64,000 bases of DNA from Oceanobacter kriegii DSM 6294 (GTDB lineage: Bacteria > Pseudomonadota > Gammaproteobacteria > Pseudomonadales > Oceanobacteraceae). A model generated the notes under the pieces. It did not search any database, was not told the DNA's origin, and was given only the letters and a program-made list of their open reading frames with translations. How positions within the stretch are numbered: the first letter of the stretch is position 1; the number at the start of each line of letters is the position of its first letter. A program made the position numbers and the translations under genes. Shown in pieces: positions 4,758 through 42,870 of the stretch. The stretch spans positions 127,600-191,599 of the forward strand of contig NZ_KE383933.1 in NCBI RefSeq assembly GCF_000422845.1, written 5' to 3'.

Positions 4758-5732
4758 ATGAAGGAATCCATAGAGTCCAACATCAAGATCGGTATCAGCG
4801 CCTGCCTGATGGGACAGCCCGTACGTTTTAACGGTGGCCACAAGCGTTCCCGTTTTTGCACCGACGTGCTGTCAAAGTACTTTGAATTTGTTGGTGTTTG
4901 CCCGGAAGTGGGCATTGGCATGAGCACACCTCGCCAGGCCATTCGTCTGATGAGCGAGAACGCCGACGACAGCAACATCCGTGCCGTCGGTTCTGACGAC
5001 GCCAGCCTCGATGTTACCGAACAGCTGATTGACTACGCCGAGCAGAAAGCCTCAGAAATGAATGACTTGTGCGGCTTCATTTTTATGCAAAAAAGCCCCA
5101 GCTGCGGGGTGTATGGCGTCAAGCGATACCTGGCCAACGGTCATCCGGAAGGTACTACCAGCGGCATTTTTGCCCGCGAGTTTATTGCCCGTCATCCACT
5201 GCTGCCGGTTGAAGAAGCAGGCCGCCTCAACGACGACGCTCTGCGGGAAAACTTCATGGTGCGGGTGTACACCTACCACGAATGGACCAGCTTCCGTCAG
5301 CAAGGTCTGACTCCTGCGTCACTGATCGATTTTCACAGCCGCTACAAGTATCTGGTGATGGCCCACAGCCTGGTGCATTACAAAAGCATGGGGCAGCTGC
5401 TGGCCAACCTGACCCGCGACACCCTTGAGCACATCGCCGATGAATACTTCGAGCAACTGATGACGGCCCTGGCCAAGCCAGCCAGTCGCAAGATGCACAC
5501 CAATACCCTGATGCACTTGCAGGGCTACCTGAAAAACCTGGTCACTGCGCAAGACAAACAAGAGCTGACTGGCATTATCGAGCAATACCGCACCGGCATT
5601 GTGCCGTTAATCGTACCGCTGACGCTGTTGAAGCATCACCTCAACCACCACGAGGAAGCCAACGCCTATGCGCGTCAGCAGGTGTACCTGAATCCGCATC
5701 CATACGAACTGGGATTGAGGAACAGCCTGTGA
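4758..5732 (+). CDS. DUF523-DUF1722 fusion protein (YbgA-like; TudS-like N domain)
   Basis: This 324-aa protein has two domains. The N half (about 10-155) is DUF523: ISACLMGQPVRFNGG (C16), GVCPEVGIG (C48) and KSPSCGVYG supply the conserved cysteines. In TudS thiouracil desulfurases of this family the equivalent residues hold a 4Fe-4S cluster. The C half (about 190-320) is DUF1722 (YbgA), with YKYLVMAHS, YKSMGQLLAN and PLTLLKHHL. The same fusion is frequently beside photolyase and LitR-type genes in gammaproteobacteria. It heads the operon and overlaps the MerR gene by a GTGA junction. A role in tRNA or nucleobase sulfur chemistry under light is speculation. Confidence 0.9.
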   Translation: MKESIESNIKIGISACLMGQPVRFNGGHKRSRFCTDVLSKYFEFVGVCPEVGIGMSTPRQAIRLMSENADDSNIRAVGSDDASLDVTEQLIDYAEQKASEMNDLCGFIFMQKSPSCGVYGVKRYLANGHPEGTTSGIFAREFIARHPLLPVEEAGRLNDDALRENFMVRVYTYHEWTSFRQQGLTPASLIDFHSRYKYLVMAHSLVHYKSMGQLLANLTRDTLEHIADEYFEQLMTALAKPASRKMHTNTLMHLQGYLKNLVTAQDKQELTGIIEQYRTGIVPLIVPLTLLKHHLNHHEEANAYARQQVYLNPHPYELGLRNSL

Positions 5733-6619
5733 GCAGCGTTATTCCGGAAGGCAGCTACCCGATTCGGGACTTTGCTCGCATGACCGGTGTTAATCCGGCC
5801 ACCTTGCGGGCATGGGAGCGTCGTTACGGCATCATCAAGCCACTGCGCACGCCGAAGGGTCATCGCTACTACACCAAGGACCATATTCAACGGGTAAACC
5901 ACATCCTGCACTGGCTCGAACAGGGCTATCCGATTCGTCACGTCGAACTGCTAATGTCCGAAGCCGAAATCGACCAGCAGCAAGACAACAGCGCCGCGCT
6001 GGATGAATGGAAACAGGAACAGCAGCAACTGCTGGCCGCGCTGCGGTCGTTGAATCCGCGCCGCTTGTTCGACCTCTGGAGCCATGCCTTTTCCAACTAC
6101 CCATTCGCGGTCTATTACCAGCATTGCCTGCTGCCCCTGATCGACTCCCTGCGTGGTCAGCCAAGTCATCCGATGCTGCTGAAAACCCTGACGTTCTTGT
6201 TGCATCAGCGGCTTACCTGCCTGATGGCCCAGCAACAACAACATACCGCCGACCCGGTGCTGTTATTGGCCACCAACCATCCGGATGGTGAACTCGATGT
6301 ATTGATCCGCGCCTGCTCCATCGGTGCAGCCGGGCTCAAGGTTGAATATCTGGGGCCGCACCTGACCCCCGCCGAGCTGTCGATTGCGGCCGAGTCCCTC
6401 AATGCCGCTGCCGTCTGGGTGCATTTTTTGCCCCACGATAAAACCGAGGACAGCGCCTGGCAGCGTCACCTGGACAACACCGAACTGCCACACTGGCTGT
6501 CAGGCACCGCCCCGCTACACAGCGGCGGCCGACCTCACATCAAGACCCTGACCAGCCCGGTGAACCAGCAAATACACACCTACATTCTCGGCTGTGGAGG
6601 CCGTCTGGATGAACTCTGA
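5729..6619 (+). CDS. MerR-family regulator, LitR/CarH-like without B12 motif
   Basis: The gene starts at GTG 5729, overlapping the preceding stop. The 296-aa product opens with a MerR helix-turn-helix (residues about 10-80: YPIRDFARMTGVNPATLRAWERRYGII, then TPKGHRYYT), typical of LitR/CarH. The C-terminal 200 residues have the length of the helical-bundle plus Rossmann B12 module. The hallmark DxHxxG cobalamin-binding motif is absent; ATNHPDGELD stands in that area. It is therefore probably not a direct B12 photosensor. In P. putida such PplR proteins need a short LOV protein to respond to light, and one is encoded at 40297 here. It is translationally coupled to phrB downstream. Confidence 0.85.
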   Translation: MSSVIPEGSYPIRDFARMTGVNPATLRAWERRYGIIKPLRTPKGHRYYTKDHIQRVNHILHWLEQGYPIRHVELLMSEAEIDQQQDNSAALDEWKQEQQQLLAALRSLNPRRLFDLWSHAFSNYPFAVYYQHCLLPLIDSLRGQPSHPMLLKTLTFLLHQRLTCLMAQQQQHTADPVLLLATNHPDGELDVLIRACSIGAAGLKVEYLGPHLTPAELSIAAESLNAAAVWVHFLPHDKTEDSAWQRHLDNTELPHWLSGTAPLHSGGRPHIKTLTSPVNQQIHTYILGCGGRLDEL

Positions 6620-8063
6620 TCTGAATCTGGTGTGGTTTCGCACCGACCTGCGCTGCTACGACAATCCGGCCTTGTTCCACGCCTGTGCCCAAGGGCGTCC
6701 GGTAATCGCGGTGTACTGTCACACCGCCAGCCAATGGCAGCAGCACGGTCTTGGCAAACGCAAGGTCCGCTGGATGGAAAACGCCGTCGCCGCCTTGCAA
6801 AACAACCTGCGCGCACTCGGTATTCCGCTGCTGGTGCTGGAAGCAGACACCTTCGACAACAGCGAATCCTTGCTGCAAACCCTGATCAGTGAACTGGGTG
6901 TTTCGCGTTTGTTGTTCAACAACGAATACGAAGTGAATGAACGCAAGCGCGACATCAACCTGTGCCGTTGGGCCAGGGATCAGGGTGTTGAAATCAGCCG
7001 CTACCATGACCAGTGTCTGGTGCCACCGGGCGACGTGCTGACCAAATCCGAACAGCCGTTCAAGGTCTACAGTCCATTCCGCAAGGCCTGGTTGCCAAAA
7101 GCCGAGCAACTGCTGACAACGCCTTTGGGATTGCCACAACCGTCGGCCGAACAACAGGCATTGGCCGACCAGCGCATGCAACAATTGCCATCGCGCTTGC
7201 GAACGCTGGAGCTGCAACTGTCCATCGAAACCGATGATCGCTGGAGCCACTGCGAAACCGAATTGCACGAGCAACTGCAACGCTTCGTGGATGAACACGG
7301 CCCGGACTACGACCAGCAGCGCGACCTGCCCGCCAAGCCCGGCACCAGCGCCCTGTCACCGGCACTATCGATTGGCCTGATTTCAGCGCGGCAGTGCATT
7401 CACACCGCGGTACAAGCCAACGAAGGGCGCCTGATTGGTGGCAACAAAGGGCTCGACAGCTGGATCAACGAGCTGACCTGGCGTGATTTCTACCGCCATT
7501 TGATGGTCGCCTTTCCGCAGCTGTGCAAGCACAAGTCGTTCAAGCCGGAATACGAAGGTGTGTGCTGGCGCAACAGCGAAGAAGACTTTCAGGCCTGGTG
7601 CGAAGGCCGCACCGGTTACCCGATTGTCGACGCCGCCCAGCGCCAACTGGTGCAAACCGGTTGGATGCACAACCGCCTGCGAATGATCACCGCCATGTTC
7701 CTGACAAAGCACCTGTTGATCGACTGGCGACGCGGCGAAGCATTTTTCAACCAGCACCTGATGGACGCCGACCTGGCATCCAACAACGGCGGCTGGCAAT
7801 GGAGTGCGTCTACCGGTGCCGACGGAGCGCCCTACTTCCGTATTTTCAATCCCATTGCGCAGTCGGAAAAATTTGACGCCGACGGTGAGTTCATCGCCCG
7901 TTACGTGCCGGAACTGGCCAAACTGGCGGGCAAATATCGCCATAACCCCAGTGCCTTTGAACGCCAGACTTGTGGCTACCCACAGCCGGTGGTTGACCAC
8001 AAATACGGTCGTCAACGCGCCCTCAACGCCTTCAAGGCGCTGAAAGACGCAACCCCAGCCTGA
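6609..8063 (+). CDS. phrB: Class I CPD deoxyribodipyrimidine photolyase
   Basis: ATG 6609 has GGAGG 8 bases upstream and overlaps the end of the MerR gene by 11 bases. The 484-aa product has the photolyase N-terminal alpha/beta antenna domain (LVWFRTDLRCYDNPALFHA). The FAD-binding C domain follows with GNKGLDSWINELTWRDFYRH, TGYPIVDAAQRQLVQTGWMHNRLRM and DWRRGEAFFNQHLMDADLASNNGGWQW. It repairs cyclobutane pyrimidine dimers using blue or near-UV light. E. coli PhrB is 472 aa, so this is full length. Being in an operon with a LitR-like regulator explains light induction. A cryptochrome-like function is less likely given the intact FAD domain motifs. Confidence 0.97.
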   Translation: MNSDLNLVWFRTDLRCYDNPALFHACAQGRPVIAVYCHTASQWQQHGLGKRKVRWMENAVAALQNNLRALGIPLLVLEADTFDNSESLLQTLISELGVSRLLFNNEYEVNERKRDINLCRWARDQGVEISRYHDQCLVPPGDVLTKSEQPFKVYSPFRKAWLPKAEQLLTTPLGLPQPSAEQQALADQRMQQLPSRLRTLELQLSIETDDRWSHCETELHEQLQRFVDEHGPDYDQQRDLPAKPGTSALSPALSIGLISARQCIHTAVQANEGRLIGGNKGLDSWINELTWRDFYRHLMVAFPQLCKHKSFKPEYEGVCWRNSEEDFQAWCEGRTGYPIVDAAQRQLVQTGWMHNRLRMITAMFLTKHLLIDWRRGEAFFNQHLMDADLASNNGGWQWSASTGADGAPYFRIFNPIAQSEKFDADGEFIARYVPELAKLAGKYRHNPSAFERQTCGYPQPVVDHKYGRQRALNAFKALKDATPA

Positions 8064-8123
8064 ACAAGGCCTATACCTATAAATAAGGCCGATAACCAAG
8101 GTTGATAACCAAGGAACGCTGCA

Positions 8124-8621
8124 ATGACTGCCAAGCCGCTATCACCCGCAGACCGACACGCCCTGATCACCGGCACCTACGACCAACTGGATGCCGACTC
8201 GGTCAACAGCGGCCTGCTGGCACAGCTGTACCACCCGGATGCGGTGTTCCATGATCCTTTTCACCGTGTCGAAGGCCTGCAGCAGATTCAACAGTACTTC
8301 AGTGCGCTGTATCAGTCGGTCAATGCCATCGTGTTTGAATACGGTCAATTCTGGCCCGGCAGCAGCGATGACTGTGACTGTGACTGTGACTGTGACTGTG
8401 ACTGTGACGAAAGTGCCGACATGCTGCGCTGGACCATGACGTTCAGTCACCCGGCTATAGCCTCCGGCAAGCAAATCCACGTTGAAGGCTGTACCGAACT
8501 GCACTGGCAGGATGGCAAGGTGATTCATCACCGCGACCTGTTCGACGGTGCCGACATGCTCTACAACCATTTACCGCTGATCGGCTGGGCACTGCGCAAA
8601 GTGCGGGAGCGTATGGCATGA
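8124..8621 (+). CDS. NTF2-like (SnoaL/ketosteroid-isomerase fold) protein with Cys-Asp repeat
   Basis: The 165-aa product resembles SnoaL/NTF2-like proteins of the kind found in light and singlet-oxygen-response operons: LLAQLYHPDAVFHDPFHRVEGLQQIQQYF near the N terminus and VIHHRDLFDGADMLYNHLPLIGWALR at the C terminus. Residues about 82-95 are an uninterrupted Asp-Cys alternation encoded by a 6-bp microsatellite, inserted in what should be a loop between strands. Catalytic function is unknown; related proteins are often called nuclear transport factor 2 family. It follows phrB by about 60 bases and overlaps the SDR gene by 4 bases, so it is in the same transcript. Confidence 0.85.
   Translation: MTAKPLSPADRHALITGTYDQLDADSVNSGLLAQLYHPDAVFHDPFHRVEGLQQIQQYFSALYQSVNAIVFEYGQFWPGSSDDCDCDCDCDCDCDESADMLRWTMTFSHPAIASGKQIHVEGCTELHWQDGKVIHHRDLFDGADMLYNHLPLIGWALRKVRERMA
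8370..8408 (+). repeat. In-frame (GACTGT)6.5 microsatellite
   Basis: Six and a half perfect copies of GACTGT encode seven Asp alternating with six Cys. The unit is six bases, so copy-number change would lengthen or shorten the protein without shifting frame. Confidence 0.97.
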
Positions 8622-9418
8622 CTCGCAAAGCGGCCAAGCCGCCACTGGAACAGCAAGTCATCTGGTTGATTGGTGCCAGCTCCGGCATCGGCGAAGCACT
8701 GGTCCACCAGCTCGCCGACCGTTGCTTGCAACTGGTGATCAGCGCCCGCAACGAAGACAAACTGGACCAACTGAGCTGCAAGTACCAGCGTATTTCATCG
8801 ATCGTCGCCGACGTCACTGATCTGGCCTCCATGCAGCAAGCGGCCCGCTACATAGAAGACGGCTTTGGCCGCATCGACACCGTCATCATTAACGCAGGCA
8901 CTTGCGAATACGTCGACGTTCAGGCGTTTGATTCTGCCCTGTTCCAGCGAGTGCTGGACACCAACCTGATGGGCACCGTACACAGCATCGAAGTGGCCTT
9001 GCCGCTGCTCCGAAACAGCCAACGTGGTTATCTGGTTGGCGTTGCCAGCAGCGTGACCTATCTGGCCTTGCCAAGAGCGCAAGCTTACGGAGCCAGCAAG
9101 GCCGGCATGCGCTACTTGCTGGAATCCATGCGGGCCGATCTGGCCTCTGAGCAGATCGATGTATCGGTGGTGTCACCGGGCTTTGTCAAAACCCCACTCA
9201 CCGACCGCAACGATTTCCCGATGCCCATGCGCATCAGCGCCGATGAGGCCGCCGTTGCCATCGTCAAGGGGCTGCAAGGGCGGCCGTGGGACATCCATTT
9301 TCCGAAACGCTTTACCAGGCTGATGCAATGGCTGGCAGCACTTCCTGCCTGCGCCCGCTTGGCCATCAGCCGCAAGACGTCAACCAATTCTGTAAAGGAA
9401 GCCTCTGATGAGCGATAA
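8618..9418 (+). CDS. Short-chain dehydrogenase/reductase
   Basis: This 266-aa SDR has the cofactor motif LIGASSGIGEALVHQLADR (TGxxxGxG type, about residues 14-32), the NAG strand (VIINAGTCEY) and the catalytic Ser and Tyr-x-x-x-Lys (VASSVTYLALPRAQAYGASKAG). The VSPGFVKTPLTDRN segment is characteristic of classical SDRs. It reduces or oxidises an alcohol/ketone with NAD(P)H; the substrate is not known. It overlaps the NTF2-like gene by 4 bases and the flavoprotein gene by 11 bases. The same NTF2-SDR-FAD oxidoreductase-DUF1365-methyltransferase order recurs in light or singlet-oxygen regulons of other proteobacteria, which points to membrane-lipid modification. Confidence 0.92.
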   Translation: MTRKAAKPPLEQQVIWLIGASSGIGEALVHQLADRCLQLVISARNEDKLDQLSCKYQRISSIVADVTDLASMQQAARYIEDGFGRIDTVIINAGTCEYVDVQAFDSALFQRVLDTNLMGTVHSIEVALPLLRNSQRGYLVGVASSVTYLALPRAQAYGASKAGMRYLLESMRADLASEQIDVSVVSPGFVKTPLTDRNDFPMPMRISADEAAVAIVKGLQGRPWDIHFPKRFTRLMQWLAALPACARLAISRKTSTNSVKEASDER

Positions 9419-10673
9419 ACCGTCCATTGCCGTTGTTGGTGCCGGGATTTCCGGTCTGACCAGTGCCTGGCTGCTGCGGGAGCGTTACGACGTCCACCTG
9501 TTTGAAGCCAACGACTATTTTGGTGGCCACACCCAAACCACCGACGTCGAGCTGGATGGCCAGGTGTGGCCGGTCAACACCGGTTTTATTGTTTACAACG
9601 ACTGGACGTATCCGAACTTCATCAAGCTGATGGACACCCTTGGTGTTCAAACCGAAGCCTCTGACATGAGCTTCAGCGTGTCGTGTGCGCAAACCGGCAT
9701 GGAGTACAACGGTGCCAACCTCGACAGCCTGCTAGCCAAGCGCTCGAACATTTTTAATCCGTCGTTCTGGCGCATGGTGAAAGACATCTTGCGCTTCAAC
9801 AAGGAAACCCGCGCCCAGCTGGATGCCGAATCCCTCGACCCCAAACAGACGCTAGGTGAGTACCTGACCGAACACGGCTACGGCGACTACTTCCGCCGTT
9901 ACTACATCATTCCGATGGGCGCTGCGATCTGGTCGGCCAGTGAAGCCATGATGATGGACTTCCCGGTGTATTTCTTTTTGCGCTTCTTCAACAACCACGG
10001 CTTGTTAAGCGTCAACGACCGGCCGCAGTGGCGGGTAATCTCCGGCGGCTCGCGCGCCTATGTAGGCCGTATTCTGGAAGACCTGCCGTCAAGCCAGATT
10101 CACACCAACGCCGCCATTGAACGCATCGAACGCGACAGCGACGGCGTCGAACTGGTGATTAACGGCCAACGCCACCGCTTTGATCAGGTGATTCTGGCCT
10201 GCCACAGCGACCAGGCCCTGCAACTGCTGGCACAGCCAACAGACGCCGAGCGAGCTATTTTGGGGGCGATTCCGTATCAGGATAACGACGTGGTGCTGCA
10301 CACCGACGTCAACATGCTGCCGAAGCGCCAGAAAGCCTGGGCCAGCTGGAACTACCACATCGACAGCGAACAGCGCAGCACGGTCGCGGTGACCTATCAC
10401 ATGAACCGCTTGCAGAATTATCAGGCCGCGCCGGAAGAGTTTTGTGTCACGCTGAACAAAACCGACGCCATTGATCCGGACAAGATCATCCGCAAGTTCA
10501 ATTACGCCCACCCGGTGTTCACCCTCGAGGGCATGGCCGCGCAGCAACGCCATCATGAAATCAGCGGCGCTAACCACACCCACTTCGCCGGTGCCTACTG
10601 GTTTAATGGCTTCCACGAAGACGGTGTGAATTCGGCCCTGCGAGTGTGCAAGGCATTGGGAGTCACCTTCTGA
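9408..10673 (+). CDS. COG2907-type NAD/FAD-binding oxidoreductase (amine-oxidase fold)
   Basis: The 421-aa product begins with a dinucleotide-binding motif ([19 protein letters not shown]), followed by [13 protein letters not shown] and [16 protein letters not shown], features of the COG2907 flavoproteins. The C terminus ([20 protein letters not shown]) provides the second FAD contact. Family members are found next to DUF1365 and Cfa-like methyltransferase genes and probably oxidise or desaturate a lipid; that role is inferred from context. It starts at ATG 9408 inside the 3' end of the SDR gene, and its stop shares a base with the next start (TGATG). Confidence 0.93.
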
Positions 10674-11776
10674 TGTCGCGCTTCAGCGGTCAGGGCTTCG
10701 AGGGCAACAGCGCCATTTATGAAGGCTGGGTGCGGCATCGGCGCTTCAAGGGCAAGCCCAACGATCTCCATCACAAGGTGTTTATGATGCTGCTGGACCT
10801 CGATGAAATCGACGAAGTCATGCAACAGCACCCGCTCTGGCGCAGTCAGCCTGCGTCCGGTTGGAAAGCCCGCTTTCTCCCGGCTTGCTTCACCCCAGCC
10901 CGTTTTGATGCCGCCGACTATTACGGCCAGCATGGCGATGCCCGCGCCCTCAAGCGCAGTTTGCTGCGCACTTTCGAGCAGGAGTTTGGCCTTGCCGTCG
11001 AACGCATCGAAATGCTCACCAACTTGCGTTACTACGGTTTCATCATCAATCCGCTGACGCTCTACTTTGGTTATGACGCCAATGGCCGCTGTGTCGGCAC
11101 TCTGGGCGAAGTGACCAACACGCCCTGGAAACAACGCTTTCACTACAACCTGTTGATGCCAGCAGATGATGCTCAACGCCAACCTCATCCACCCAGAGCC
11201 ATCAAACCGCAGCGCCTGATTGGTAAAAACCGCTACCAGTATCAGTTCAGCAAGTCCTTCCATGTATCGCCGTTCAACAGCCTGGACATGCAGTACCGCT
11301 GGACCCTGAATCCCCCCGAAGCGCAAACCGGCAGCCGTCTGGCAAGCCAGATGGACGTGATGCAGGACGGCGAAAGGGTCATGGACGCCACCATGAAATT
11401 GCAGCGCCAGCCGATCAGCCGGGCCGCCATGAGTCGCATTCTGTGGCGCTACCCCATGATGACGGTGCAGGTGGGACTGGGAATCTACTGGAACGCCGCC
11501 AAACTGTGGTTGAAAGGCAACCCGTATGTGCCGCATCCGCACAACGAGCCAGAGCAGGATCATGCTGAGCAGCTGCGCAGCAGTCAGCCAAGCAGCGAGC
11601 CCATTACCAAGAACAATACCAAGAACAATACCAAGAACAGTACCGAAAACAGCAACCCGCCAGACAACCGCCATAAAAACAACAACCCGAACGCTATCAG
11701 CGATCGCCCAACGGCAACCGAATCGACTTCAGACGCTGCCGAGGCAGCCCAGCCGTCTTCCACAGGAGCACGATAA
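10673..11776 (+). CDS. DUF1365 protein with asparagine/threonine-rich tail
   Basis: ATG 10673 overlaps the previous stop by one base (TGATG); an in-frame upstream GTG lies inside that gene. The first 300 or so of 367 residues form the DUF1365 domain ([66 protein letters not shown]). The biochemical role is unknown, but the gene almost always accompanies Cfa-like methyltransferase and COG2907 genes. The last 65 or so residues are unusual: low complexity, rich in Asn, Thr, Ser and Pro, and partly built from a 12-bp repeat. They are probably disordered. The stop overlaps the next ATG by one base (TAATG). Confidence 0.9.
11606..11653 (+). repeat. 12-bp tandem repeat in the DUF1365 gene tail
   Basis: ACCAAGAACAAT occurs twice, then ACCAAGAACAGT, then a decayed fourth copy ACCGAAAACAGC. 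It encodes TKNN-type units and is in frame. Confidence 0.9.
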
Positions 11777-13194
11777 TGAAAAGCCTGACGACCTCGTCCA
11801 CCGACATCGCCTGGATTGACCGCCTCTGCCGCAACGCGCTGTGCACCCGCCTGGGCCAGCTGCGCCGAGCCCACCTGACCATTCGGGAGCAAGGCCAGAC
11901 GCTGACCTTTGGCGATGCCAGCAGCGACCTGCACGCCACGGTCACACTGCACGACTCCGAAGCCTGGCGCACCATCGCCCTGTACGGCAGCGTTGGCGCT
12001 GGCGACGCCTATATGACCGGCGATTTCAGTGTCGACGACCTGCCTGCGCTGATTCGAATCCTGTGCCGCAACAAGGACGTACTCGACACCATCGACAGTG
12101 GCTGGGCCAACGCCGGTAAATGGGCGCTGAAGCTGTGGAACCACTTCCAGCGCAATACCGAAAAAGGCTCCCGCCGCAACATTGCCGCTCACTACGATCT
12201 CGGCAATGAGATGTTCAAGCTGTTCCTTGACCCGACGCTGATGTACTCCAGCGCCATTTTTCCAAACCGCGAGGCCAGCCTTGAAGAGGCCTCCCTATTC
12301 AAGCTCGACCGCCTGTGCCAGAAGCTGCAACTGACCCCCGATGATCACCTGATTGAAATCGGCACCGGCTGGGGCAGCATGGCGATTCATGCCGCCAAGC
12401 ACTACGGCTGTCGGGTAACCACCACCACCATTTCGGAAGAGCAGTACAAGCTGGCGCAACAACGGGTCGAGCAAGAAGGCTTGCAGGATCGCATCACCTT
12501 GTTGAAAGAAGACTACCGCCAGCTGCAAGGCACCTTCGACAAGCTGGTATCGGTGGAAATGATCGAAGCCGTTGGCCACCAGTACCTGAACACCTACTTC
12601 CAGACCATCAGCAAGCTGCTTAAGCCCGATGGCATTGCCGTGATTCAGGCCATCACCATCGACGACTGGCGCTACGAAAAAGCCAAAAACAGCGTCGACT
12701 TCATCAAGCGTTATATTTTCCCCGGCGGCTTCCTGCCATCCGTTACGGCAATCCAGAACGCCATGGTGACCGCTGGTGACCTGAAAACCGTGCACCTGGA
12801 AGACATCGGCACCCACTACGCCGAAACCCTGCGCCGCTGGCGAGCCGACTTTCTGGCCAACCGCGACGCCCTGCGCCAACAAGGTTACGACGATACCTTC
12901 TATCGACTGTGGGACTTCTACTTCAGCTACTGCGAAGGGGGGTTCGATGAGCGCGTGATCAGCACCGTGCAGATGGTATTCGCCAAGCCGGACAACCAGC
13001 GCGACATGCTGCTGGGCAGTTTGCAGGCACCCGCCATTACGCCATCGTTCACACAAGCTATTAGCTCAGAGGCAACGACTGCTGTGACGGAAACCATCGA
13101 AGCCACCGTAACGGCCGAAGCGTCAGAAGATGCGAGCACAACCCACACCGCAGCGGACGAAAACAAGGCCAACGGGCTCTCCCGGGCGTCCTGA
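11776..13194 (+). CDS. Cyclopropane/furan fatty acid synthase-type SAM methyltransferase
   Basis: The 472-aa product is a Cfa-family methyltransferase: NIAAHYDLGNEMFKLFLD, YSSAIF, the SAM site LIEIGTGWGSMAIHAAK, VEMIEAVGHQYL, YIFPGGFLPS and WDFYFSYCEGGF. It transfers a methyl or methylene group from SAM onto unsaturated phospholipid acyl chains. Its companions (COG2907, DUF1365, LitR-type control) fit the UfaM-like branch that makes methylated or furan fatty acids, which quench singlet oxygen, better than housekeeping Cfa; this assignment is by context. The final 45 or so residues are a Thr/Glu/Ala-rich tail absent from typical members. It begins one base inside the DUF1365 gene. Confidence 0.9.
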   Translation: MKSLTTSSTDIAWIDRLCRNALCTRLGQLRRAHLTIREQGQTLTFGDASSDLHATVTLHDSEAWRTIALYGSVGAGDAYMTGDFSVDDLPALIRILCRNKDVLDTIDSGWANAGKWALKLWNHFQRNTEKGSRRNIAAHYDLGNEMFKLFLDPTLMYSSAIFPNREASLEEASLFKLDRLCQKLQLTPDDHLIEIGTGWGSMAIHAAKHYGCRVTTTTISEEQYKLAQQRVEQEGLQDRITLLKEDYRQLQGTFDKLVSVEMIEAVGHQYLNTYFQTISKLLKPDGIAVIQAITIDDWRYEKAKNSVDFIKRYIFPGGFLPSVTAIQNAMVTAGDLKTVHLEDIGTHYAETLRRWRADFLANRDALRQQGYDDTFYRLWDFYFSYCEGGFDERVISTVQMVFAKPDNQRDMLLGSLQAPAITPSFTQAISSEATTAVTETIEATVTAEASEDASTTHTAADENKANGLSRAS

Positions 13195-13250: not shown

Positions 13251-13781
13251 ATGAACAAGCAGCCGCTTCGGTTAAAACGCAGCCACCAGCTGATACTCAA
13301 CATCGCCATGTTTCAGCTGGTTTGGTTTGCCTGCATTCTCGGCGGTAACCTCTGGGCCTTGGCCGTCACGCCGCTGTTGGTGTTGTGGCATCGCACCCTG
13401 TTGCAGCCCGGCGAATGGCAGTTGATTACCGCCTATCTGTTAGCGGGTGCCGTGCTCGATACTCTGCTGATTGGCTCGGGTCAGCTGCAACTGGCCAATC
13501 ATCAAGGGCCATTGCTGCCGTATTGGCTGTGGCTGTTGTGGGGCGCGTTTGCCACCACCCTGCTACATTCACTGCACTGGCTGGTATTGCGACGCAATGC
13601 CCTGATCGTGGCGGGTGGGCTGTTGGCTCCGCTCAGTTACTACACCGGAGCCCAACTTCAACAAGCCACGCTGACCACGTTGGGCCTGCTGGTGATTGGC
13701 CTGCAGTGGGCCATGCTGATGGCATTGACCCACGTTGTCGTCATTCGACGGACAGCACAGCAGGCCGGGGGCGAATCATGA
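13251..13781 (+). CDS. DUF2878 membrane protein
   Basis: This 176-aa very hydrophobic protein has about five membrane spans (ILNIAMFQLVWFACILGG, LWALAVTPLLVLW, LITAYLLAGAVLDTLLIG, YWLWLLWGAFATTLLH, LGLLVIGLQWAMLMAL). It matches the size and composition of the DUF2878 family, inner-membrane proteins of unknown function that often follow Cfa-like genes in this kind of operon. There is a 56-base gap after the methyltransferase gene with no terminator seen. Its stop overlaps the start of a 28-codon mini-ORF by ATGA. Confidence 0.85.
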   Translation: MNKQPLRLKRSHQLILNIAMFQLVWFACILGGNLWALAVTPLLVLWHRTLLQPGEWQLITAYLLAGAVLDTLLIGSGQLQLANHQGPLLPYWLWLLWGAFATTLLHSLHWLVLRRNALIVAGGLLAPLSYYTGAQLQQATLTTLGLLVIGLQWAMLMALTHVVVIRRTAQQAGGES

Positions 13782-13864
13782 TCCAATGGCGGTTTGAAAT
13801 GCCCCGACAGAATTGCCAGACTGCGAACCCTGACGATTCAGCGAACACGGAAGCTCAAGGATGA
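13778..13864 (+). CDS. 28-aa mini-ORF bridging DUF2878 and the TonB receptor
   Basis: ATG 13778 overlaps the DUF2878 stop (ATGA), with a run of five G at a Shine-Dalgarno distance. The frame ends in TGA at 13862-13864, which overlaps the ATG of the receptor gene, again as ATGA. The predicted peptide starts MIQWRFEMPRQNC and is polar, with no signal peptide. I do not recognise it. It may be a real small protein or only a device carrying ribosomes from DUF2878 to the receptor start. The two exact stop-start overlaps are the main support. Confidence 0.4.
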   Translation: MIQWRFEMPRQNCQTANPDDSANTEAQG

Positions 13865-16020
13865 CCCTACTCGCTTATACACTTCGGCCTGCCAAATCAT
13901 CTGGGCCTGCGACATCTCGAACGATCAAGCGCCGGCCAACCAAAGCCCAGCCTGTTTGGGCACTGGCGATGCTTGCCGTCGGTATGCTGCCTGTATCGGC
14001 GTTCGCCAACACCGATTCCGCCGACATTGCCAACACTAACGCAGACCCGGACCTCATCTATCAGGATGCCGAAGTGGTCGAAGTGTTAGGCATCAAGGAA
14101 CCACTGACCACGGTAAAAACCGAACGACTGCTGAAAGTCCCCGGTGCCGGTAACGACCCATTACGAGCCATCGGCAGCTTGCCCGGCGTAGTGTTCAGCT
14201 CAGCGCAAAGCTCCGAACCGGCGGTACGTGGCTCATCGCCGGACGACAACGCTTTTTACATCGACTTCTTTCCGGTGGGTTATATCTTCCACACCGATGC
14301 CTCCAGTATCCTCAGCGACAACGTGATTGGCGATTTTGCCCTGCTGCCAGCGGCCTTTGGCCCGGCGTATAACGGCTCCACCGGTGCCGTCATTGATGCT
14401 CAGTCGCGCCGCCCGGATTTTGGTAACCGTCAGGCCGTAATCGACTTCAGCTTGCTGAAAGCCGGGATCTTTTTCGAGCAACCCACCGGCGACAATCAGG
14501 GCTTTTACCTGTCTGCCCGCCAGAGCCTGTTCCAGTACTACATCGAAAACCTGCTCGACGATGAGGAATTCGAATTCACCACCGTGCCGGAATACTACGA
14601 CTATCAGGGCAAGTACGAGTACGCCGTCAGCACCACCGAATCCATCACCTTCAACGTCATAGGCGCTCGCGACAAAGCCGGCTTGCTGTTCGACGAAGAC
14701 TCCGACCAGGTGCAGCAAGACCCCGGTCTGGATGGCGGCATTGGCTTTGAGCAGTACTTCAACAGCCAGGCCTTGCTGTGGGAAAAGATTTACCCCTCCG
14801 GACTGCAACAAAAACTGGGCCTGGCCCAACTGGAGCAGAAGCTGCAATTCAGCATTGGCAATAGCAACCGCATTGATGTGAAGGTGAACGACTACACCGT
14901 CAAAAGCCAGTTCAGCCAATTTGTGAACCTCGACCACGAACTCAGCTGGGGGCTGGAGTTTGGCCAGGCGCATATCGGCGGCAGCGGCCGCTACGCCGGT
15001 CCCCCTTGCGATGAGTTTCAACCGGACTGCCGACTGGTGGACGGCACCGAAACCATCGACAGTCGCTTTGATGAAGTGGTCAACAGTCTGGACCTCAGCC
15101 TCGCCGACCGCTGGCAGGTGAACGAGGACTGGGAGCTGACCCCGGGCGTACTGGTGTCCGTTGAGGACTACACCGAAGAGTGGTTTATCGAACCCAAATT
15201 GCAAAGCCGCTGGCGCTTTGCGCCGTTCTGGAACCTCACCAGCGGTTACGGCCAATACCACGACTTCCCGGACAACTTTGGCCAGTACGCTGAGGATTTC
15301 GGCAACCCCGACCTGAAACTGCCCACCGCCAACCATTGGGTGCTGGGGCTGGAGCACGAATGGCGTGACGACCTGCTGGTCAAGCTGGAAACCTATTACA
15401 AAACCATGGATCGGCTGGTGATCGCTCGCCAGTCAGCGGACAACTACCCCGATCTCAGCAGCCAGCAATACAGCGAACTGCCCCGCTACAGCAACGATGC
15501 CCACGGCAAGGCCTGGGGCGTGGAGTTGTTTATCAACAAGGATCTGACCGATCAATGGTACGGCTGGGCCTCATTGGCCTGGTCTCATACAGAACGCACC
15601 AACGACATTACCGGCGAAGACTTTCGCTACGCCTACGACCAGCCGGTGGTCATTAATAGCGTCATTGGCTACGAACTCAGCGACCGCACCACGCTGGGCC
15701 TGAAATGGCGCTATCAGAGCGGCCAGCTGGTCACCCCATTGCTGGGGGCCGAGCAGGACAGCGACAACCCCGAGCTGTACAACCCGATCTACGGCGACAT
15801 CAATTCCGAGCGCTTGCCCGCCTATCACAGCCTCGACGTTCGTATGGATCGGCTGTACCTGTTCGAGGGTTGGGAAATGACGCTGTACGGAGAAATTCTG
15901 AATCTCTACGGCCGCGATAACGTGATCGACTATGACTACAAAAATGCCGATTACAGCGAGCGGGAAGACGTCACCGACTTGCCCACCATTGTTTCTTTGG
16001 GTGTAAAAATCGAGCTGTAG
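13861..16020 (+). CDS. TonB-dependent outer-membrane receptor
   Basis: The 719-aa product has a basic N region and a hydrophobic signal segment (VWALAMLAVGMLPVSAFA, about residues 32-49). A plug domain follows (VLGIKEPLTTVKTERLLKV, IGSLPGVVFSSAQSSEPAVRG, DNAFYIDFFPVGYIFH), then a long barrel ending in VSLGVKIEL. It would import an unknown ligand across the outer membrane using TonB energy. It is not BtuB-like in length or plug sequence. The start overlaps the mini-ORF stop, so it appears to be the last gene of the light operon, an unusual companion for photolyase and lipid genes. No terminator was found after it. Confidence 0.88.
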   Translation: MTLLAYTLRPAKSSGPATSRTIKRRPTKAQPVWALAMLAVGMLPVSAFANTDSADIANTNADPDLIYQDAEVVEVLGIKEPLTTVKTERLLKVPGAGNDPLRAIGSLPGVVFSSAQSSEPAVRGSSPDDNAFYIDFFPVGYIFHTDASSILSDNVIGDFALLPAAFGPAYNGSTGAVIDAQSRRPDFGNRQAVIDFSLLKAGIFFEQPTGDNQGFYLSARQSLFQYYIENLLDDEEFEFTTVPEYYDYQGKYEYAVSTTESITFNVIGARDKAGLLFDEDSDQVQQDPGLDGGIGFEQYFNSQALLWEKIYPSGLQQKLGLAQLEQKLQFSIGNSNRIDVKVNDYTVKSQFSQFVNLDHELSWGLEFGQAHIGGSGRYAGPPCDEFQPDCRLVDGTETIDSRFDEVVNSLDLSLADRWQVNEDWELTPGVLVSVEDYTEEWFIEPKLQSRWRFAPFWNLTSGYGQYHDFPDNFGQYAEDFGNPDLKLPTANHWVLGLEHEWRDDLLVKLETYYKTMDRLVIARQSADNYPDLSSQQYSELPRYSNDAHGKAWGVELFINKDLTDQWYGWASLAWSHTERTNDITGEDFRYAYDQPVVINSVIGYELSDRTTLGLKWRYQSGQLVTPLLGAEQDSDNPELYNPIYGDINSERLPAYHSLDVRMDRLYLFEGWEMTLYGEILNLYGRDNVIDYDYKNADYSEREDVTDLPTIVSLGVKIEL

Positions 16021-34368: not shown

Positions 34369-34390
34369 TTCAGGACGGTAAATTCAGTAC

Positions 34391-36347: not shown

Positions 36348-37249
36348 GGTTGCTCCTGTTGCCGCAGGGTCTCGGCCAGCTGCTCTGCATCCGGCAGAAT
36401 CAGGTTCAACGAGCGAGCAACCTGCTCGTTATAACGCACCTTGAAATACGGGTTGTATCCCGCCGCAGGCCAATCGCCCTGTTGCCCGGCCGTTACCAGC
36501 TCAGCCAACCGGCGGGCGGTGTCGCCAAGGTCACTGTAGGTCGACGCCAGCGCACCGGCCCGGATATAGGCGCTCGAAGGGCCAATCAGAGGGCGACTCT
36601 GGCGATAGGCGGTAATCAGGATGTTCTTGATATTGGCAGCGCTGTAGAGGGTCGTATCGTAAATACCGATCAGCGCCTGACTGCTTTGCAACAGGTCGAC
36701 CAAAGCACGATTCAGACTGTCGTAGTCGTCGAGGTAATAGGCCTGAAGACGCTTGCTGTCCAGACTGTCTTCGCAGTCGCACAATGTCAGCAGCGACTGC
36801 TGATTGGTCGCCAGTACGCCCAACGGCTGATCATCACCGATCAGGGACTGCGCCAGTGCGATTTGACGTGAAAATGGGGGTTCCAGATAGATGGCGCTTT
36901 GCAGTGCCAGTGCAGGGACTTGCTGAGCCGGTATCAGCACCGCCAGAGTCGGGATATTGGCCGGAATACGGTCACGGGCCGTCAGTGCTTGCTGGCCGAC
37001 CAGCACCACCACATCGGCTTGCTGCACACGGTCTTCAAAGCGAGGGCTGCTGGTCAACACCACCGTTGCCTGGGCGTTGGCCAGCTCGGCGGTATTGGCC
37101 GCCAGACGGGATACAGAATCGGCCTTCTTGTGGCTGACAAATGCCAGTTCAAGGGCGCAGGAGACGTTGAATACCAACAGCAACGCCAGGCTCAGCAGCG
37201 CTGTGGTCCAACTCCTCCTGTTTTCGTCACTGAAACACCTTGCATCCAT
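36344..37249 (-). CDS. ABC_sub_bind family periplasmic protein
   Basis: The 301-aa product has an N-terminal signal sequence (TTALLSLALLLVFNVSCALE) followed by the two-lobed PF04392-like fold (AQATVVLTSSPRFEDRVQQADVVVLVGQQAL, PANIPTLAVLIPAQQVPALAL, RQSRPLIGPSSAYIRAGALAS). Such proteins usually bind small molecules for ABC importers, but no permease or ATPase gene is present. It lies between a TonB receptor gene (17-base gap) and a hybrid kinase gene (4-base overlap). A role as ligand-binding subunit of a sensing system is therefore likely; this is inference. Confidence 0.85.
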   Translation of the reverse strand: MDARCFSDENRRSWTTALLSLALLLVFNVSCALELAFVSHKKADSVSRLAANTAELANAQATVVLTSSPRFEDRVQQADVVVLVGQQALTARDRIPANIPTLAVLIPAQQVPALALQSAIYLEPPFSRQIALAQSLIGDDQPLGVLATNQQSLLTLCDCEDSLDSKRLQAYYLDDYDSLNRALVDLLQSSQALIGIYDTTLYSAANIKNILITAYRQSRPLIGPSSAYIRAGALASTYSDLGDTARRLAELVTAGQQGDWPAAGYNPYFKVRYNEQVARSLNLILPDAEQLAETLRQQEQP

Positions 37250-37265
37250 GCAATCTGTCTTCCTG

Positions 37266-39536: not shown

Positions 39537-39692
39537 AGGTTGTTTTGTAATTCGCTGCTCTTTTTCCCGCTGCCCTCTGTCAAGAGTGTCAACGGGTTCT
39601 ACTAACGGCTTTATACTGATGTAGGCCTGACAGAACAAGTATCAGGCGGCTATAATCCGGCCCAAACCAAACACTGACCAAGGGAAAACAAC

Positions 39693-40220
39693 ATGAGCTA
39701 CAACTCAGTGTCCGCAGGCAAAGACCTTCCAAACGACGTTTACGTGGTAATTGAAATTCCTGCTAACCATGCGCCGATCAAGTACGAAATTGACAAGGAC
39801 ATGGACTGCCTGATGGTTGACCGTTTTATGGCAACCCCGATGTTCTACCCAGCCAACTACGGCTACATCAACGATACTCTGGCGGGTGATGGCGACCCTC
39901 TGGACGTGCTGGTTGTGACTCCTTACCCAGTACAGCCGGGCTCCGTGATCCGTGCTCGTCCAGTCGGTGTTCTTAATATGGAAGACGAGGGTGGCGAAGA
40001 CGTCAAGCTGCTGGCCGTTCCTCACACCAAGCTGACCAAGATCTACGACGACGTTCAGGACATCAACGATGTTCCTCAACTGCTGCGTGACCAGATTGCT
40101 CACTTCTTCGAGAACTACAAGGATCTGGAAGCTGGCAAGTGGGTTAAAGTCCGCGACTGGGGCAATGCCGACGACGCTCGCAAGCTGATCGAAGAATCTG
40201 CCGCTGCCTACAAGGGCTAA
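39693..40220 (+). CDS. ppa: Inorganic pyrophosphatase
   Basis: The 175-aa product is the size of E. coli Ppa (176). It contains [21 protein letters not shown], the active-site signature [14 protein letters not shown] with metal-binding Asp residues, and [15 protein letters not shown]. It hydrolyses pyrophosphate in the cytoplasm with Mg2+. A ribosome site AAGGG precedes the ATG and a terminator follows. Confidence 0.98.
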
Positions 40221-40246
40221 GCGACGGTTGTTCAAACAGCACGCAC

Positions 40247-40274
40247 AAAAAAGCCGGGTTACCCCGGCTTTTTT
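40247..40274. terminator. Bidirectional terminator, ppa / LOV gene
   Basis: AAAAAAGCCGGG, short loop TTAC, then CCCGGCTTTTTT. It serves both convergent genes. Confidence 0.93.
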
Positions 40275-40296
40275 GTGGCTGTCAGCTTTGTAGCGG

Positions 40297-40740
40297 TCAG
40301 TTTTGCTTGGCCTGCAGCGCCTCGAACTGACGTTTCAGCTCGACAAATTCCGATACATCTTTTTGTACACCAATGTAATACATCAACTGTTCATCTTCGC
40401 TGTACACAGGTGACAAACTCAATTCGTTCCAGAACATCGAGCCATCCTTGCGGTAATTGCGCAGGGTCACCCGCGCCGATTTGCCTTCCTTGATGGCCTG
40501 ACGAATCTCTTCAATACCCTGCTGCTCACGATCACCGGCCTGCAGGAAACGGCAGTCCTGATAGAGAATTTCATCCGCGCTGTAGCCGGTAAGCCGCTCA
40601 AATGCCTTGTTCACATAGATCAGGATGTTGTCTTCACCTTCCTGTTCCGCAATGACAATGCCATCGTTGGAAGCGTCGACGGCTTTTTTAAGCAGATCGA
40701 GGTTGATCGGGCCCTGCGGGTCTGTTGGCTGGTCAAACAT
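40297..40740 (-). CDS. Short LOV-domain blue-light photoreceptor (PpSB-LOV-like)
   Basis: The 147-aa product is a single LOV/PAS domain with short flanking helices. The photoactive site is YQDCRFLQ with Cys63. Flavin-contact residues are present in RNYRKDGSMFWNELSLSPV (N95, N105) and IGVQKDV (Q126). It closely follows the Pseudomonas putida PpSB1/PpSB2-LOV pattern (VDASNDGIVIAE, TGYSADEILYQDCRF), with about 10 extra N-terminal residues and no output domain. Blue light should form a Cys-FMN adduct. It is divergent from a LitR-like MerR gene, the same pairing as ppSB-LOV/pplR. GGAGA precedes the ATG. It could signal by protein contact with the MerR proteins. Confidence 0.93.
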   Translation of the reverse strand: MFDQPTDPQGPINLDLLKKAVDASNDGIVIAEQEGEDNILIYVNKAFERLTGYSADEILYQDCRFLQAGDREQQGIEEIRQAIKEGKSARVTLRNYRKDGSMFWNELSLSPVYSEDEQLMYYIGVQKDVSEFVELKRQFEALQAKQN

Positions 40741-40766
40741 GAAATATCTCCGCGTATGATGCTGGA

Positions 40767-40795
40767 AAAGTAATCAGCATGGCGCGTCGGGTCAA
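40767..40795 (-). promoter_or_regulatory. Candidate sigma70 promoter of the LOV gene
   Basis: On the minus strand TTGACC (40790-40795) and TACTTT (40767-40772) are separated by 17 bp, upstream of the LOV start at 40740. Confidence 0.5.
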
Positions 40796-40854
40796 GTATT
40801 GACGCGCCAAAGTCGCGGCGGGTTTTTACATTAGCGGTAGCAACGAATAGAATC

Positions 40855-40870
40855 TGTACAACCTTGTATA
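40855..40870. promoter_or_regulatory. Putative LitR/PplR operator between LOV and MerR genes
   Basis: TGTACAA-CC-TTGTATA reads as a near-perfect inverted repeat. On the minus strand it is also two T(G/A)TACA half-sites 10 bp apart. It lies in the 205-bp divergent region of the LOV and MerR genes. Confidence 0.6.
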
Positions 40871-40945
40871 TTGGTTGTTTACCTTGTTTGATCTTTTCCA
40901 CGTCCGCAAGCACCTGTCCCGCTTGCCAAGCACGAGCGCCCTATC

Positions 40946-41863
40946 ATGACTGGCAGTAGTTCCGAGTCGACTGCGGCTTATTACCCGATCCGCGTCGTAG
41001 CATCCGAAACCGGCATCAATGCAATCACACTGCGCGCTTGGGAGCGTCGCTATGGATTGATCGAACCCAAACGCACCGCCAAAGGCCACCGCCTCTACAC
41101 CGAGCAGGACATCAAGCTGATCAAGCAGATTGTCTCTTTGCTGAACCGCGGTATTCCTATTTCCCAGGCTCAGGCCATGGTCGCCAACGGCGAAACCCTG
41201 CCCGACTCCGGCACTGGCGTCAGCAAGCCATCGCAGTGGCAGGTGTACCGTGAGCAACTGGCCAACGCCTGCCAACAGTTTGATGAGCGAGCACTGGCGA
41301 AAACCTTCGACGAAGTGTGCCAGTTCTTCCCGGTCGAAATGGCGCTGCGGTTTCTGTTTATCCCCTTTGCCCAGCAACTGCGCGAGCAGTCCACCCATTC
41401 TCTTGGCCCTGCCCGCATCAGCCTGTACGAGTCGTTTCTGTATTCGCGACTGGCGTGGCGTCTGTCGGATAACAGCCAACCCGCAGATACCCGGGTATTG
41501 ATCGCCAACTGCACCCGCGATTCGGAAATCGATCTGCTGTTTGTGGCCTTGCTGGTGCGTCAATTTGGTCTGGGCATTACCCATTTGTCCCACCTCACCA
41601 CCGCCGAGCAAATCATTCAGCTGATCAAGGAATGCAAGCAGTGGCCGGTGATGGTGCTGCAGGTTGAACGCATGCCTGACAGCAACCACGTGCAGCAATA
41701 CCGTAAGGTCGCCATCGAAACTGGCATGCCGGTGTTTGTGATTGGCGCTGCCATGGACGCCCACCCGCGCCTGAAAGAGGCCGGTTTGATTCCGCTGATG
41801 TCGGACGATTTACAAAATGCGGCCCTCACGGTTCGCGATATTATTGAAGGAATGACGGCATGA
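40946..41863 (+). CDS. MerR-family regulator, LitR/PplR-like (second copy)
   Basis: The 305-aa product has a MerR helix-turn-helix almost identical in layout to that of the 5729 gene: YYPIRVVASETGINAITLRAWERRYGLIE and TAKGHRLYT, about residues 11-80. The C-terminal region has the length of a CarH sensor module but no DxHxxG cobalamin motif (LIANCTRDSEIDLLF in the corresponding area). It pairs divergently with the short LOV gene, matching the pplR/ppSB-LOV arrangement of P. putida, where both proteins are required for light induction. It overlaps rsmC by an ATGA junction. Confidence 0.88.
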   Translation: MTGSSSESTAAYYPIRVVASETGINAITLRAWERRYGLIEPKRTAKGHRLYTEQDIKLIKQIVSLLNRGIPISQAQAMVANGETLPDSGTGVSKPSQWQVYREQLANACQQFDERALAKTFDEVCQFFPVEMALRFLFIPFAQQLREQSTHSLGPARISLYESFLYSRLAWRLSDNSQPADTRVLIANCTRDSEIDLLFVALLVRQFGLGITHLSHLTTAEQIIQLIKECKQWPVMVLQVERMPDSNHVQQYRKVAIETGMPVFVIGAAMDAHPRLKEAGLIPLMSDDLQNAALTVRDIIEGMTA

Positions 41864-42870
41864 GCCAGGCCCCGTATCAACTACTGTGCCGCCACGAAGA
41901 TTTACACACCGACCGCACGCTGGTCATCAGCGCTGAAGCCAACCTCGACCCGGACTGGGTGCAACTGGCTCGCGACACCGGTGTCAGCCTGCAAAGCTGG
42001 AACTGGACCACCTACCAGAATGCCAAACGCCAACTGGGCGAGGACAAAGTCAGCTTTGGGGTACCGGACAACGAGCTGCCGGACAACACCGAACGGGTGA
42101 TTCTGCTGTGGCCAAAATCCAAGGTATTGGCACAAGCTCTGGTTGAGCAACTGGCCAAAACACCGGACCACCGCTACCTGCCTGAACTCTGGATCGTTGG
42201 TGCCAATGACGCCGGCGGCAAGAGCATCAACAACGCATTGAAATCACTGGCCGACTGCGAAAAACAGGACAGCGCCCGTCGCTGTTCGCTGTGGTCAGCC
42301 CTGCTGAAACCACAGGAAGGCAGCTTCAACTGGTTGCGACTGGCCAAACCGACCCCCTATAAAGACGATTCTTTCCTGTCGTTGCCCGGCGTCTTCAGCC
42401 AGGGCAGCCTCGACGCTGGCACCGAATTGTTGCTGGAAACCCTGCCACCACTGCATGGCAATGCACTGGATCTTGGCTGTGGCAGCGGCATCATCGGTTT
42501 GACCACCGTGAACGACAAAACCACCATGACCCTGTCGGACGTCGACGCCATGGCACTACGCAGCGCGGCACTGAACAGCGCCCGCAAGGGACTGGAAGTG
42601 AGCATCGTGCCAAGCGACGGCTTGGCCGACATCAGCGGTCGTTTCAACTATATTTTATCCAATCCGCCGTTCCACAGCGGCAAGGAAACGGATTACACCA
42701 TTGTTGAAACCCTGTTCCGTCAGGCCCGTGATCACCTGACCGTGAACGGCGAAGTCTGGTTGGTGGCCAACCGTCACCTGCCTTACGAAGAGTTGGCCAA
42801 GGGGCACTTTTCCCAAATAGAGGAAATGGCCAGCGGCCGTGGTTTCAAGGTTATTCGTCTGCGCCGCTGA
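41860..42870 (+). CDS. rsmC: 16S rRNA (guanine1207-N2)-methyltransferase
   Basis: The 336-aa product (E. coli RsmC 343 aa) has an N-terminal pseudo-methyltransferase domain and a C-terminal catalytic domain. Its SAM motif is ALDLGCGSGIIGL and its catalytic motif is SNPPFHSGKETDY. It methylates G1207 of 16S rRNA. It begins within the MerR gene stop (ATGA), so it is translationally linked to a light regulator, an unusual partner for an rRNA methylase. Confidence 0.95.
   Translation: MSQAPYQLLCRHEDLHTDRTLVISAEANLDPDWVQLARDTGVSLQSWNWTTYQNAKRQLGEDKVSFGVPDNELPDNTERVILLWPKSKVLAQALVEQLAKTPDHRYLPELWIVGANDAGGKSINNALKSLADCEKQDSARRCSLWSALLKPQEGSFNWLRLAKPTPYKDDSFLSLPGVFSQGSLDAGTELLLETLPPLHGNALDLGCGSGIIGLTTVNDKTTMTLSDVDAMALRSAALNSARKGLEVSIVPSDGLADISGRFNYILSNPPFHSGKETDYTIVETLFRQARDHLTVNGEVWLVANRHLPYEELAKGHFSQIEEMASGRGFKVIRLRR

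Follow-up and report, generated by a model that had tools for sequence, protein, structure and literature searches.

Gene content of the locus

The window analysed here, a 64,000-nt stretch of the 4.5-Mb genome of Oceanobacter kriegii DSM 6294, probably a marine bacterium (contig NZ_KE383933.1; G000:C8:127600-191599 in our numbering; all coordinates are window positions), carries the gene for a short LOV receptor, two genes for MerR-family regulators of the LitR/CarH kind and an operon that begins with rudS and includes genes for a photolyase and a lipid methyltransferase, together with three predicted operator regions built from one half-site, T(A/G)TACA. Taken together, these features very probably constitute a blue-light-induced photoprotection regulon of the kind described in Pseudomonas mendocina for PmSB-LOV and the PmlR repressors (PMC9758184). 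The features on which this reading turns are as follows:

2850..2903, no strand: predicted operator in the gap between the yfcH-like gene and the flavin adenine dinucleotide (FAD) oxidoreductase gene; half-sites TATACA at 2850, TATACA at 2861 (an 11-bp tandem) and TGTACA at 2898
4658..4754, no strand: predicted operator/promoter of the rudS operon; half-sites at 4658, 4677, 4727 and 4749, -35-like TTGAC at 4691
4758..5732, plus strand: rudS, a TudS-like desulfidase (2-thiouracil desulfurase) fused to DUF1722 (Pfam; PMC11417400)
5729..6619, plus strand: MerR1, predicted LitR/CarH-like repressor inside the operon (Pfam, CarH alignment, tree)
6594..8063, plus strand: phr, cyclobutane pyrimidine dimer (CPD) photolyase (PRK10674 equivalog, 526.6 bits against a cut-off of 506)
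11776..13194, plus strand: Cfa/UfaM-type lipid methyltransferase (CMAS, E 1.8e-83)
40297..40740, minus strand: short LOV blue-light receptor with photoactive Cys63 (Pfam, PDB matches, alignment of relatives)
40855..40870, no strand: predicted operator palindrome TGTACAACCTTGTATA in the LOV/MerR2 gap (sequence, genome scan)
40946..41863, plus strand: MerR2, predicted LitR/CarH-like repressor, divergent from the LOV gene (CarH alignment, structure model)

A first-pass annotation of this DNA had proposed a light-response regulon at 4758..42870, with a short LOV receptor, two LitR-like regulators lacking a B12 motif, a CPD photolyase and a Cfa/UfaM-type operon. The gene content stands, the photolyase and methyltransferase assignments being borne out by the family scores above, but the left edge is probably too short: because of the operators at 2850-2903, the regulon probably begins at 1904.

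A short LOV receptor and two LitR-like regulators

The 147-amino-acid open reading frame (ORF) at 40297-40740 consists, according to Pfam, of a lone PAS/LOV domain with no effector domain. Its best PDB matches are chains named 'Sensory box protein' (7r5n, E 6.5e-58), which we take to be Pseudomonas short LOVs. The photoactive cysteine, Cys63, is retained in the motif YQDCRFLQ, and the core CRFLQ is found in 79 of the 80 relatives retained in our survey (the best 80 of 536 confirmed short-LOV loci, from named genomes), the remaining one (L089) having CRFMQ; the closest LOVs among the matches listed belong to Oceanobacter, Thalassolituus, Bacterioplanes and Oleibacter genomes. The LOV gene is flanked in the window by a pyrophosphatase gene and by merR2-rsmC, and a minus-strand run nearby (34452-39638) comprises a hybrid histidine kinase, a protein without a Pfam match and a TonB-dependent receptor.

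Both MerR proteins, which are only distantly related to each other, match Thermus CarH (5c8d) across the helix-turn-helix (HTH) and part of the C-terminal region (E 1.1e-14 for MerR1, 2.8e-14 for MerR2). An AlphaFold2 model of MerR2 (mean pLDDT 84.2, pTM 0.65) finds CarH as its best PDB matches (5c8f, E 1.6e-14) and is CarH-like over the HTH, the helical bundle and the Rossmann part, with a target template-modelling (TM) score of about 0.8 against cobalamin-domain entries; the full-length query TM of 0.50-0.58 and the high root-mean-square deviation indicate that the domain arrangement of CarH is not matched. This resemblance might suggest that the MerR proteins are themselves B12 photosensors, like class I LitR/CarH of Thermus, Bacillus and Myxococcus, and that the LOV protein is not needed. 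However, the CarH histidine preceding 'EIGAM' aligns with Gly in MerR1 and with Ser in MerR2, and the W...EEH stretch of CarH is kept in neither alignment, so that this explanation deserves next to no credence. The two regulators thus lack the B12 motif, as the first-pass annotation had it. They share fold and HTH with the class I proteins but not the ligands, a separate LOV protein being the presumed sensor; MerR2, as modelled, is a CarH-like fold without B12 ligands.

Predicted operators and their conservation

The half-site T(A/G)TACA, the one known from the published PplR/PmlR operators, occurs 32 times in the window, and nine of these occurrences fall in three intergenic gaps totalling 717 bp, where 0.36 would be expected (binomial P 6e-11); two of the gaps, rudS and LOV/MerR2, followed from the earlier finding, and the yfcH/FAD gap was picked after its half-sites had been seen. 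When the gaps were shuffled one by one with their dinucleotides preserved, the count seen was reached in 0/2000 cases for rudS, 1/2000 for yfcH/FAD and 18/2000 for LOV/MerR2. The half-sites at 2850-2903 surround a promoter-like TATACA-N16-TAGAAT (promoter scan), the last one upstream of rudS ends 3 bp before the ATG, and TGTACAACCTTGTATA lies just downstream of a TTTACA-N17-TAGAAT-like promoter facing MerR2 (read by eye). At zero mismatches the pattern TRTACAANNTTGTAYA has its sole genomic site in the LOV/MerR2 gap, and at one mismatch there are three genomic sites, the rudS promoter among them. The pattern TATACAAN{2,32}TRTACA, built after the sites were known, yields eight genomic hits against one in the reversed control, five of the eight lying inside the three gaps. 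Upstream of the rudS promoter, just past the CbiX-like gene, there is also a simple AAGG/GGAA repeat (about 4365-4395).

The same elements recur in relatives. Across the 21 rudS-operon loci of the Oceanobacter-Thalassolituus family (L156-L176), the 140 bp upstream of rudS contain at least three half-sites in every case (mean 4.2, against a background of 0.10 per 140 bp), as well as TTGAC, a sigma-70-like -35 element (21/21). At least two half-sites lie within 160 bp upstream of the FAD gene in 19/20 relatives, and each of the 24 LOV/MerR gaps, the window's own included, has at least one (at least two in 16/24). The 140 bp before phr (0/21) and cfa (0/20) contain no half-site, and any half-site at all was found upstream of SDR (short-chain dehydrogenase) in 2/20, merR1 in 2/21 and lysR in 1/14 loci.

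In P. mendocina, PmlR2 represses a rudS-type promoter through T(G/A)TACA-N12-TGTA(C/T)A, with one site over the -35 element and one between the transcription start and the ATG, and lit PmSB-LOV takes PmlR2 off the promoter (PMC9758184). The rudS promoter of strain EF27 (L262) reads TATACA-N12-TGTACA enclosing TTGACT, then TATGAT and TGTACA-N12-TGTACA; it agrees with the published account, its parts being similarly placed. The window likewise has pairs of TRTACA half-sites, one at the rudS promoter and one ahead of the rudS ATG, and EF27, like the window, has half-sites before the FAD gene, but the spacing is 12 bp in P. mendocina and 13 and 16 bp here, and TTGAC, enclosed by the two half-sites of site 1 in L262, here follows the second of them. 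The exact published 12-bp spacing is not kept at these window sites, and the site-1 spacing is 14 bp in 14/21 relatives; we treat 12 bp as a Pseudomonas consensus that does not define the wider LOV/LitR kind.

A further candidate target, cryB (PF04244), lies elsewhere in the genome. By-eye counts give at least one half-site upstream of cryB in 12/12 genomes with LOV/LitR (four with one only) and in 0/7 genomes without (Fisher P 2e-5; the genomes are related and therefore do not represent 19 independent cases). In P. mendocina, cryB is light-induced (PMC9758184). Besides phr and cryB, the Oceanobacter genome encodes two more photolyase/cryptochrome-family proteins in tandem (L185, G000:C4:68000-82000, positions 5675-8794). 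One same-family genome without a close short-LOV match (L180, G019:C2:121000-140000) has rudS and the lipid genes next to a divergently oriented MerR gene of very diverged sequence and no half-site upstream of rudS; possibly a different regulator operates there.

The promoter architecture also bears on the proposal that singlet oxygen or other reactive oxygen species (ROS) control the operon through ChrR/sigma-E and a MerR protein, as in Vibrio cholerae, with the LOV protein incidental. The V. cholerae blue-light response does need ChrR and MerR, and photolyase genes are among those studied (PMC5241685); the Rhodobacter RSP1087-1091 operon was studied in chrR-deleted cells (PMC7380195); and TGATC-N18-CGTAT, the sigma-E consensus of Vibrio, is over-represented across the window when up to two mismatches are allowed (56 matches against 36, reached in 1/100 shuffles). 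Yet, whereas V. cholerae responds via ROS and sigma-E (PMC5241685), 0/56 of these matches lie in the rudS upstream gap (4359-4757), and the sigma-70-like element of all 21 rudS promoters argues against sigma-E control. On these promoter comparisons we regard ROS control as very improbable.

LOV-LitR pairing across genomes

The search for the same pairing in related genomes, suggested in the first-pass annotation, recovered a LitR gene in the fetched LOV flanks at 44 of the best 80 named loci, in three arrangements: 19 divergent, which are all 19 loci of the Oceanobacter-Thalassolituus group, 20 convergent, found in Pseudomonas and its kin, and five tandem, found in Halothiobacillaceae. Among 55 relatives sampled for co-occurrence, the short LOV (E < 1e-50) is present in 25 and MerR1 (E <= 1e-37) in 23, all of them within the 25. 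The two genes share a contig within 60 kb in 15/23 genomes (a distance of about 30-58 kb in 14 and of 5 kb in the other), are more than 1 Mb apart in 3/23 and lie on different contigs in 5/23.

An alternative would be two separate circuits, whereby MerR1 alone would run the photolyase operon and LOV-MerR2 would run only itself (plus rsmC) or other genes. Such a separation would accord with the location of merR1 within its own target operon, with the distant relationship of MerR1 to MerR2, and with genome G050, in which the LOV gene has no LitR in its 1.5-kb flanks. However, the same half-site is present in all three window gaps, MerR1 occurs in 23 of the 25 LOV genomes, and direct binding to the rudS-type promoter is reported for the P. 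mendocina PmlR2 (PMC9758184), all of which speaks against two circuits, an arrangement that we consider unlikely.

The relationships among the regulators were examined in a LitR tree, which took in no class III-V LitRs; its first version of 71 rows had long branches, and 13 rows were dropped to leave 58 before the clade tests. The groups were defined after the first tree had been seen, long branches remain, and three rows from Halothiobacillaceae (L094, L124 and L138) stayed in the tree without being assigned to the named PmlR groups. In the best tree, a branch (support 85/78, not starred) has MerR1 and the PmlR1-type LitRs of Pseudomonas phr operons on the same side.

Target operon and terminal receptor

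The remaining genes assigned to the predicted regulon are as follows:

1904..2815, minus strand: yfcH-like oxidoreductase, divergent from the FAD gene (TIGR01777, E 1.2e-94, 317 bits against a cut-off of 207; same divergent place in P. mendocina EF27)
2929..3945, plus strand: FAD-dependent oxidoreductase of the amine-oxidase family (Pfam; ortholog in 20/21 family loci and P. mendocina EF27); start taken as GTG 2929, not ATG 2887
3960..4358, plus strand: CbiX/sirohydrochlorin-chelatase-like protein between the FAD gene and rudS (ORF named by eye without a family search); match in 21/21 family loci
8124..8621, plus strand: SnoaL-like protein (Pfam)
8618..9418, plus strand: SDR (Pfam)
9408..10673, plus strand: FAD protein, putatively UfaD-like by domain and order (Pfam; pathway PMC7380195)
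10646..11776, plus strand: DUF1365 protein (Pfam)
13251..13781, plus strand: DUF2878 protein (Pfam)
13861..16020, plus strand: TonB-dependent-receptor-like outer-membrane protein at the operon end (OMP_b-brl_3)
41860..42870, plus strand: rsmC-like methyltransferase (MTS and MTS_N domains; same order in G001, L179)

The domain content and order of the operon would fit a furan fatty acid pathway with UfaM, UfaD and UfaO, the DUF1365 protein at 10646..11776 being presumably UfaO-like by gene order. The SnoaL-like protein contains an alternating Asp-Cys run (DDCDCDCDCDCDCD, about 8367-8410), and the DNA there is therefore a short tandem repeat. The rsmC-like gene overlaps the merR2 stop codon and is thus probably co-transcribed with it, so that an rRNA modification gene may be under a light repressor; it adjoins merR2 in G001 as well.

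The expectation of a different cargo in this lineage proved mostly wrong. In P. mendocina EF27, a yfcH-like gene divergent from the FAD gene is followed by rudS-merR-phr-SnoaL-SDR-FAD-DUF1365-ufaM-DUF2878 in the same order, so that the cargo is mostly the same, and the UfaM-type proteins occupying the same place are 54% identical. The CbiX-like gene and the terminal receptor have no match in the 17-kb EF27 stretch. In two relatives that were read (L160 and L161), phr is followed by a fatty-acid-desaturase-like gene (by eye) and DUF2878 by another gene, both of which are absent from the window.

The receptor closes the operon in 20/21 family loci, being absent in L170. It starts 79 bp after the DUF2878 ORF in the window, and the gap to the preceding ORF is -41 to 99 bp in those loci, 15 of the 20, for which a mechanical rule returned a value; in L159, where the stretch contains no lipid genes, it directly follows phr. 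In the class at large it is rare: of 320 further genomes sampled, 11 carry a homolog (E <= 1e-60). None of the operon, LitR and LOV queries matched within the 1.5-kb flanks of the 13 non-family receptor loci fetched, so that, within our sample, the link between the receptor and the light operon is seen only in the Oceanobacter-Thalassolituus family. We tentatively put forward, as a composite scenario that is somewhat less probable than its negation, that the light switch of this family gained an uptake function with the receptor and that short LOVs repeatedly took non-orthologous LitR partners (the PmlR2 type in Pseudomonas, MerR2 in the family and those of Halothiobacillaceae). If so, light would gate substrate import along with lipid remodelling, the receptor being the last gene of a LOV/LitR operon, and the pairing of LOV with LitR would be a module that has evolved repeatedly.

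Proposed regulation and comparison with known systems

For the blue-light regulon proposed above, we infer the light response, the protein contact and the direction of control along the following lines. In the dark, MerR2, and probably MerR1, would occupy the T(A/G)TACA half-sites that adjoin the -35 element and those that separate the transcription start from the translation start, blocking RNA polymerase, as the operators and the published behaviour of PmlR2 suggest. Blue light would generate an adduct between flavin mononucleotide and Cys63 of the LOV protein, which, by analogy with P. mendocina, may then bind the HTH part of the repressor and remove it from DNA. The genes released would be rudS-merR1-phr-SnoaL-SDR-FAD-DUF1365-ufaM-DUF2878-receptor, yfcH, FAD-cbiX and merR2-rsmC, with cryB, at a separate genomic locus, as a probable further member. 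MerR1, the product of a gene in the operon that it targets, would reset the switch.

Several observations weigh against this reading. The tree tests reject uniting MerR2 in one clade with the PmlR2-type LitRs encoded beside LOV in Pseudomonas, the grouping that would mark it as a class II LitR in the phylogenetic sense (p-AU 0.0133 in the approximately unbiased test, 58 rows). The published N12 operator has six window hits at up to two mismatches against 2.9 expected, a count reached by 11/100 shuffles, and the looser TGTACA-N12-TGTACA at up to three mismatches is in excess (29 against 17, 0/100 shuffles), but with hits scattered across the window and only one in the rudS gap; given this lack of clear enrichment and the scatter, the analysis was based on half-sites. 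Over the whole genome, TRTACAANNTTGTAYA at up to two mismatches is no more frequent than its control (23 hits against 24). The cryB gene of the window's own genome has a single intact half-site, and a one-mismatch TGATC-N18-CGTAT match lies over the LOV start (40730-40757, plus strand). Finally, 36 of the 80 named LOV loci, mostly from Halomonas relatives, all of which are included, and Ectothiorhodospiraceae, have no LitR in the fetched flanks, some of which are short; in five of these genomes examined in full (G070, G071, G072, G073 and G075), a LitR-like gene stands beside phr elsewhere (5/5).

The Pseudomonas-type logic proposed by the first-pass annotation is thus upheld by the shared operators, the adjacency of LOV and LitR in three arrangements and the co-occurrence, but not in the sense that MerR2 is the counterpart of PmlR2, orthology with which the tree does not establish. 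Given the rejected clade, LOV may pair with different LitR paralogs in different lineages. As in P. mendocina, a short LOV with its cysteine is found with two LitR-like MerRs, one in the rudS-phr-ufaM operon and one near the LOV gene (PMC9758184). The LOV and LitR genes are convergent with a gene between them there but divergent and adjacent here; the LOV gene is flanked by fol genes there but by the pyrophosphatase gene and merR2-rsmC here; and the LOV-adjacent LitR is not in one clade with PmlR2. P. putida KT2440 is similar in having short LOVs and LitR paralogs that control phrB, ufaM and cryB (PMC9758184, PMC11014904, PMC11417400) but has three LitRs (PplR1-3) and two LOVs (PpSB1-LOV and PpSB2-LOV), against the two LitRs and one LOV found here. 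Homologs of PmlR2 and PmSB-LOV are described as conserved in 'Pseudomonas spp. and closely related bacteria' (PMC9758184).

The kind of system is accordingly one already known from Pseudomonas, what is new being its presence in another clade, with the receptor and the operator spacing as variations; the titles and abstract beginnings listed from the open-licence literature contained no account of a LOV/LitR system in the Oceanobacter-Thalassolituus family, nor of the receptor. A blue-light circuit whose biochemistry was worked out in Pseudomonas is thereby extended to another bacterial clade, together with a predicted operator map, so that the LOV-to-LitR mechanism becomes testable on a second, diverged pair. 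Such pairs, with the same half-site but a different repressor clade and spacing, offer material for mapping contact surfaces and for optogenetic tools. The rudS-type proteins belong to a family of tRNA 4-thiouridine (s4U) de-modification enzymes (PMC11417400), and this enzyme and a light-controlled outer-membrane receptor are pointed to as predicted parts of photoprotection.

Other operator-like sites

Several further sites were considered as targets and set aside. The TGTACA half-sites at 56861 and 56901 (region 56861-56918), directly before a comF-like start, were rejected because just two of six genus relatives (G002 and G006) have one upstream half-site. Among the operator-pattern matches elsewhere in the genome, C19:15734 lies inside a glycosyltransferase-like ORF, and C11:19504 (L228), C12:14141 (L229) and C9:143951 (L227) have nearby genes without an obvious link. 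A TetR/acyl-CoA dehydrogenase site in relatives (L216, L218 and L222) was left out, as it may, we would guess, be the TetR protein's own operator, and repeated TATACAGTG...TATATACA hits in the family scan, which look to us like LexA boxes, were not counted as operators. A one-mismatch operator palindrome at C2:396862 (L002) precedes an htpX-like protease gene by about 160 bp and is possibly a further target or a chance match.

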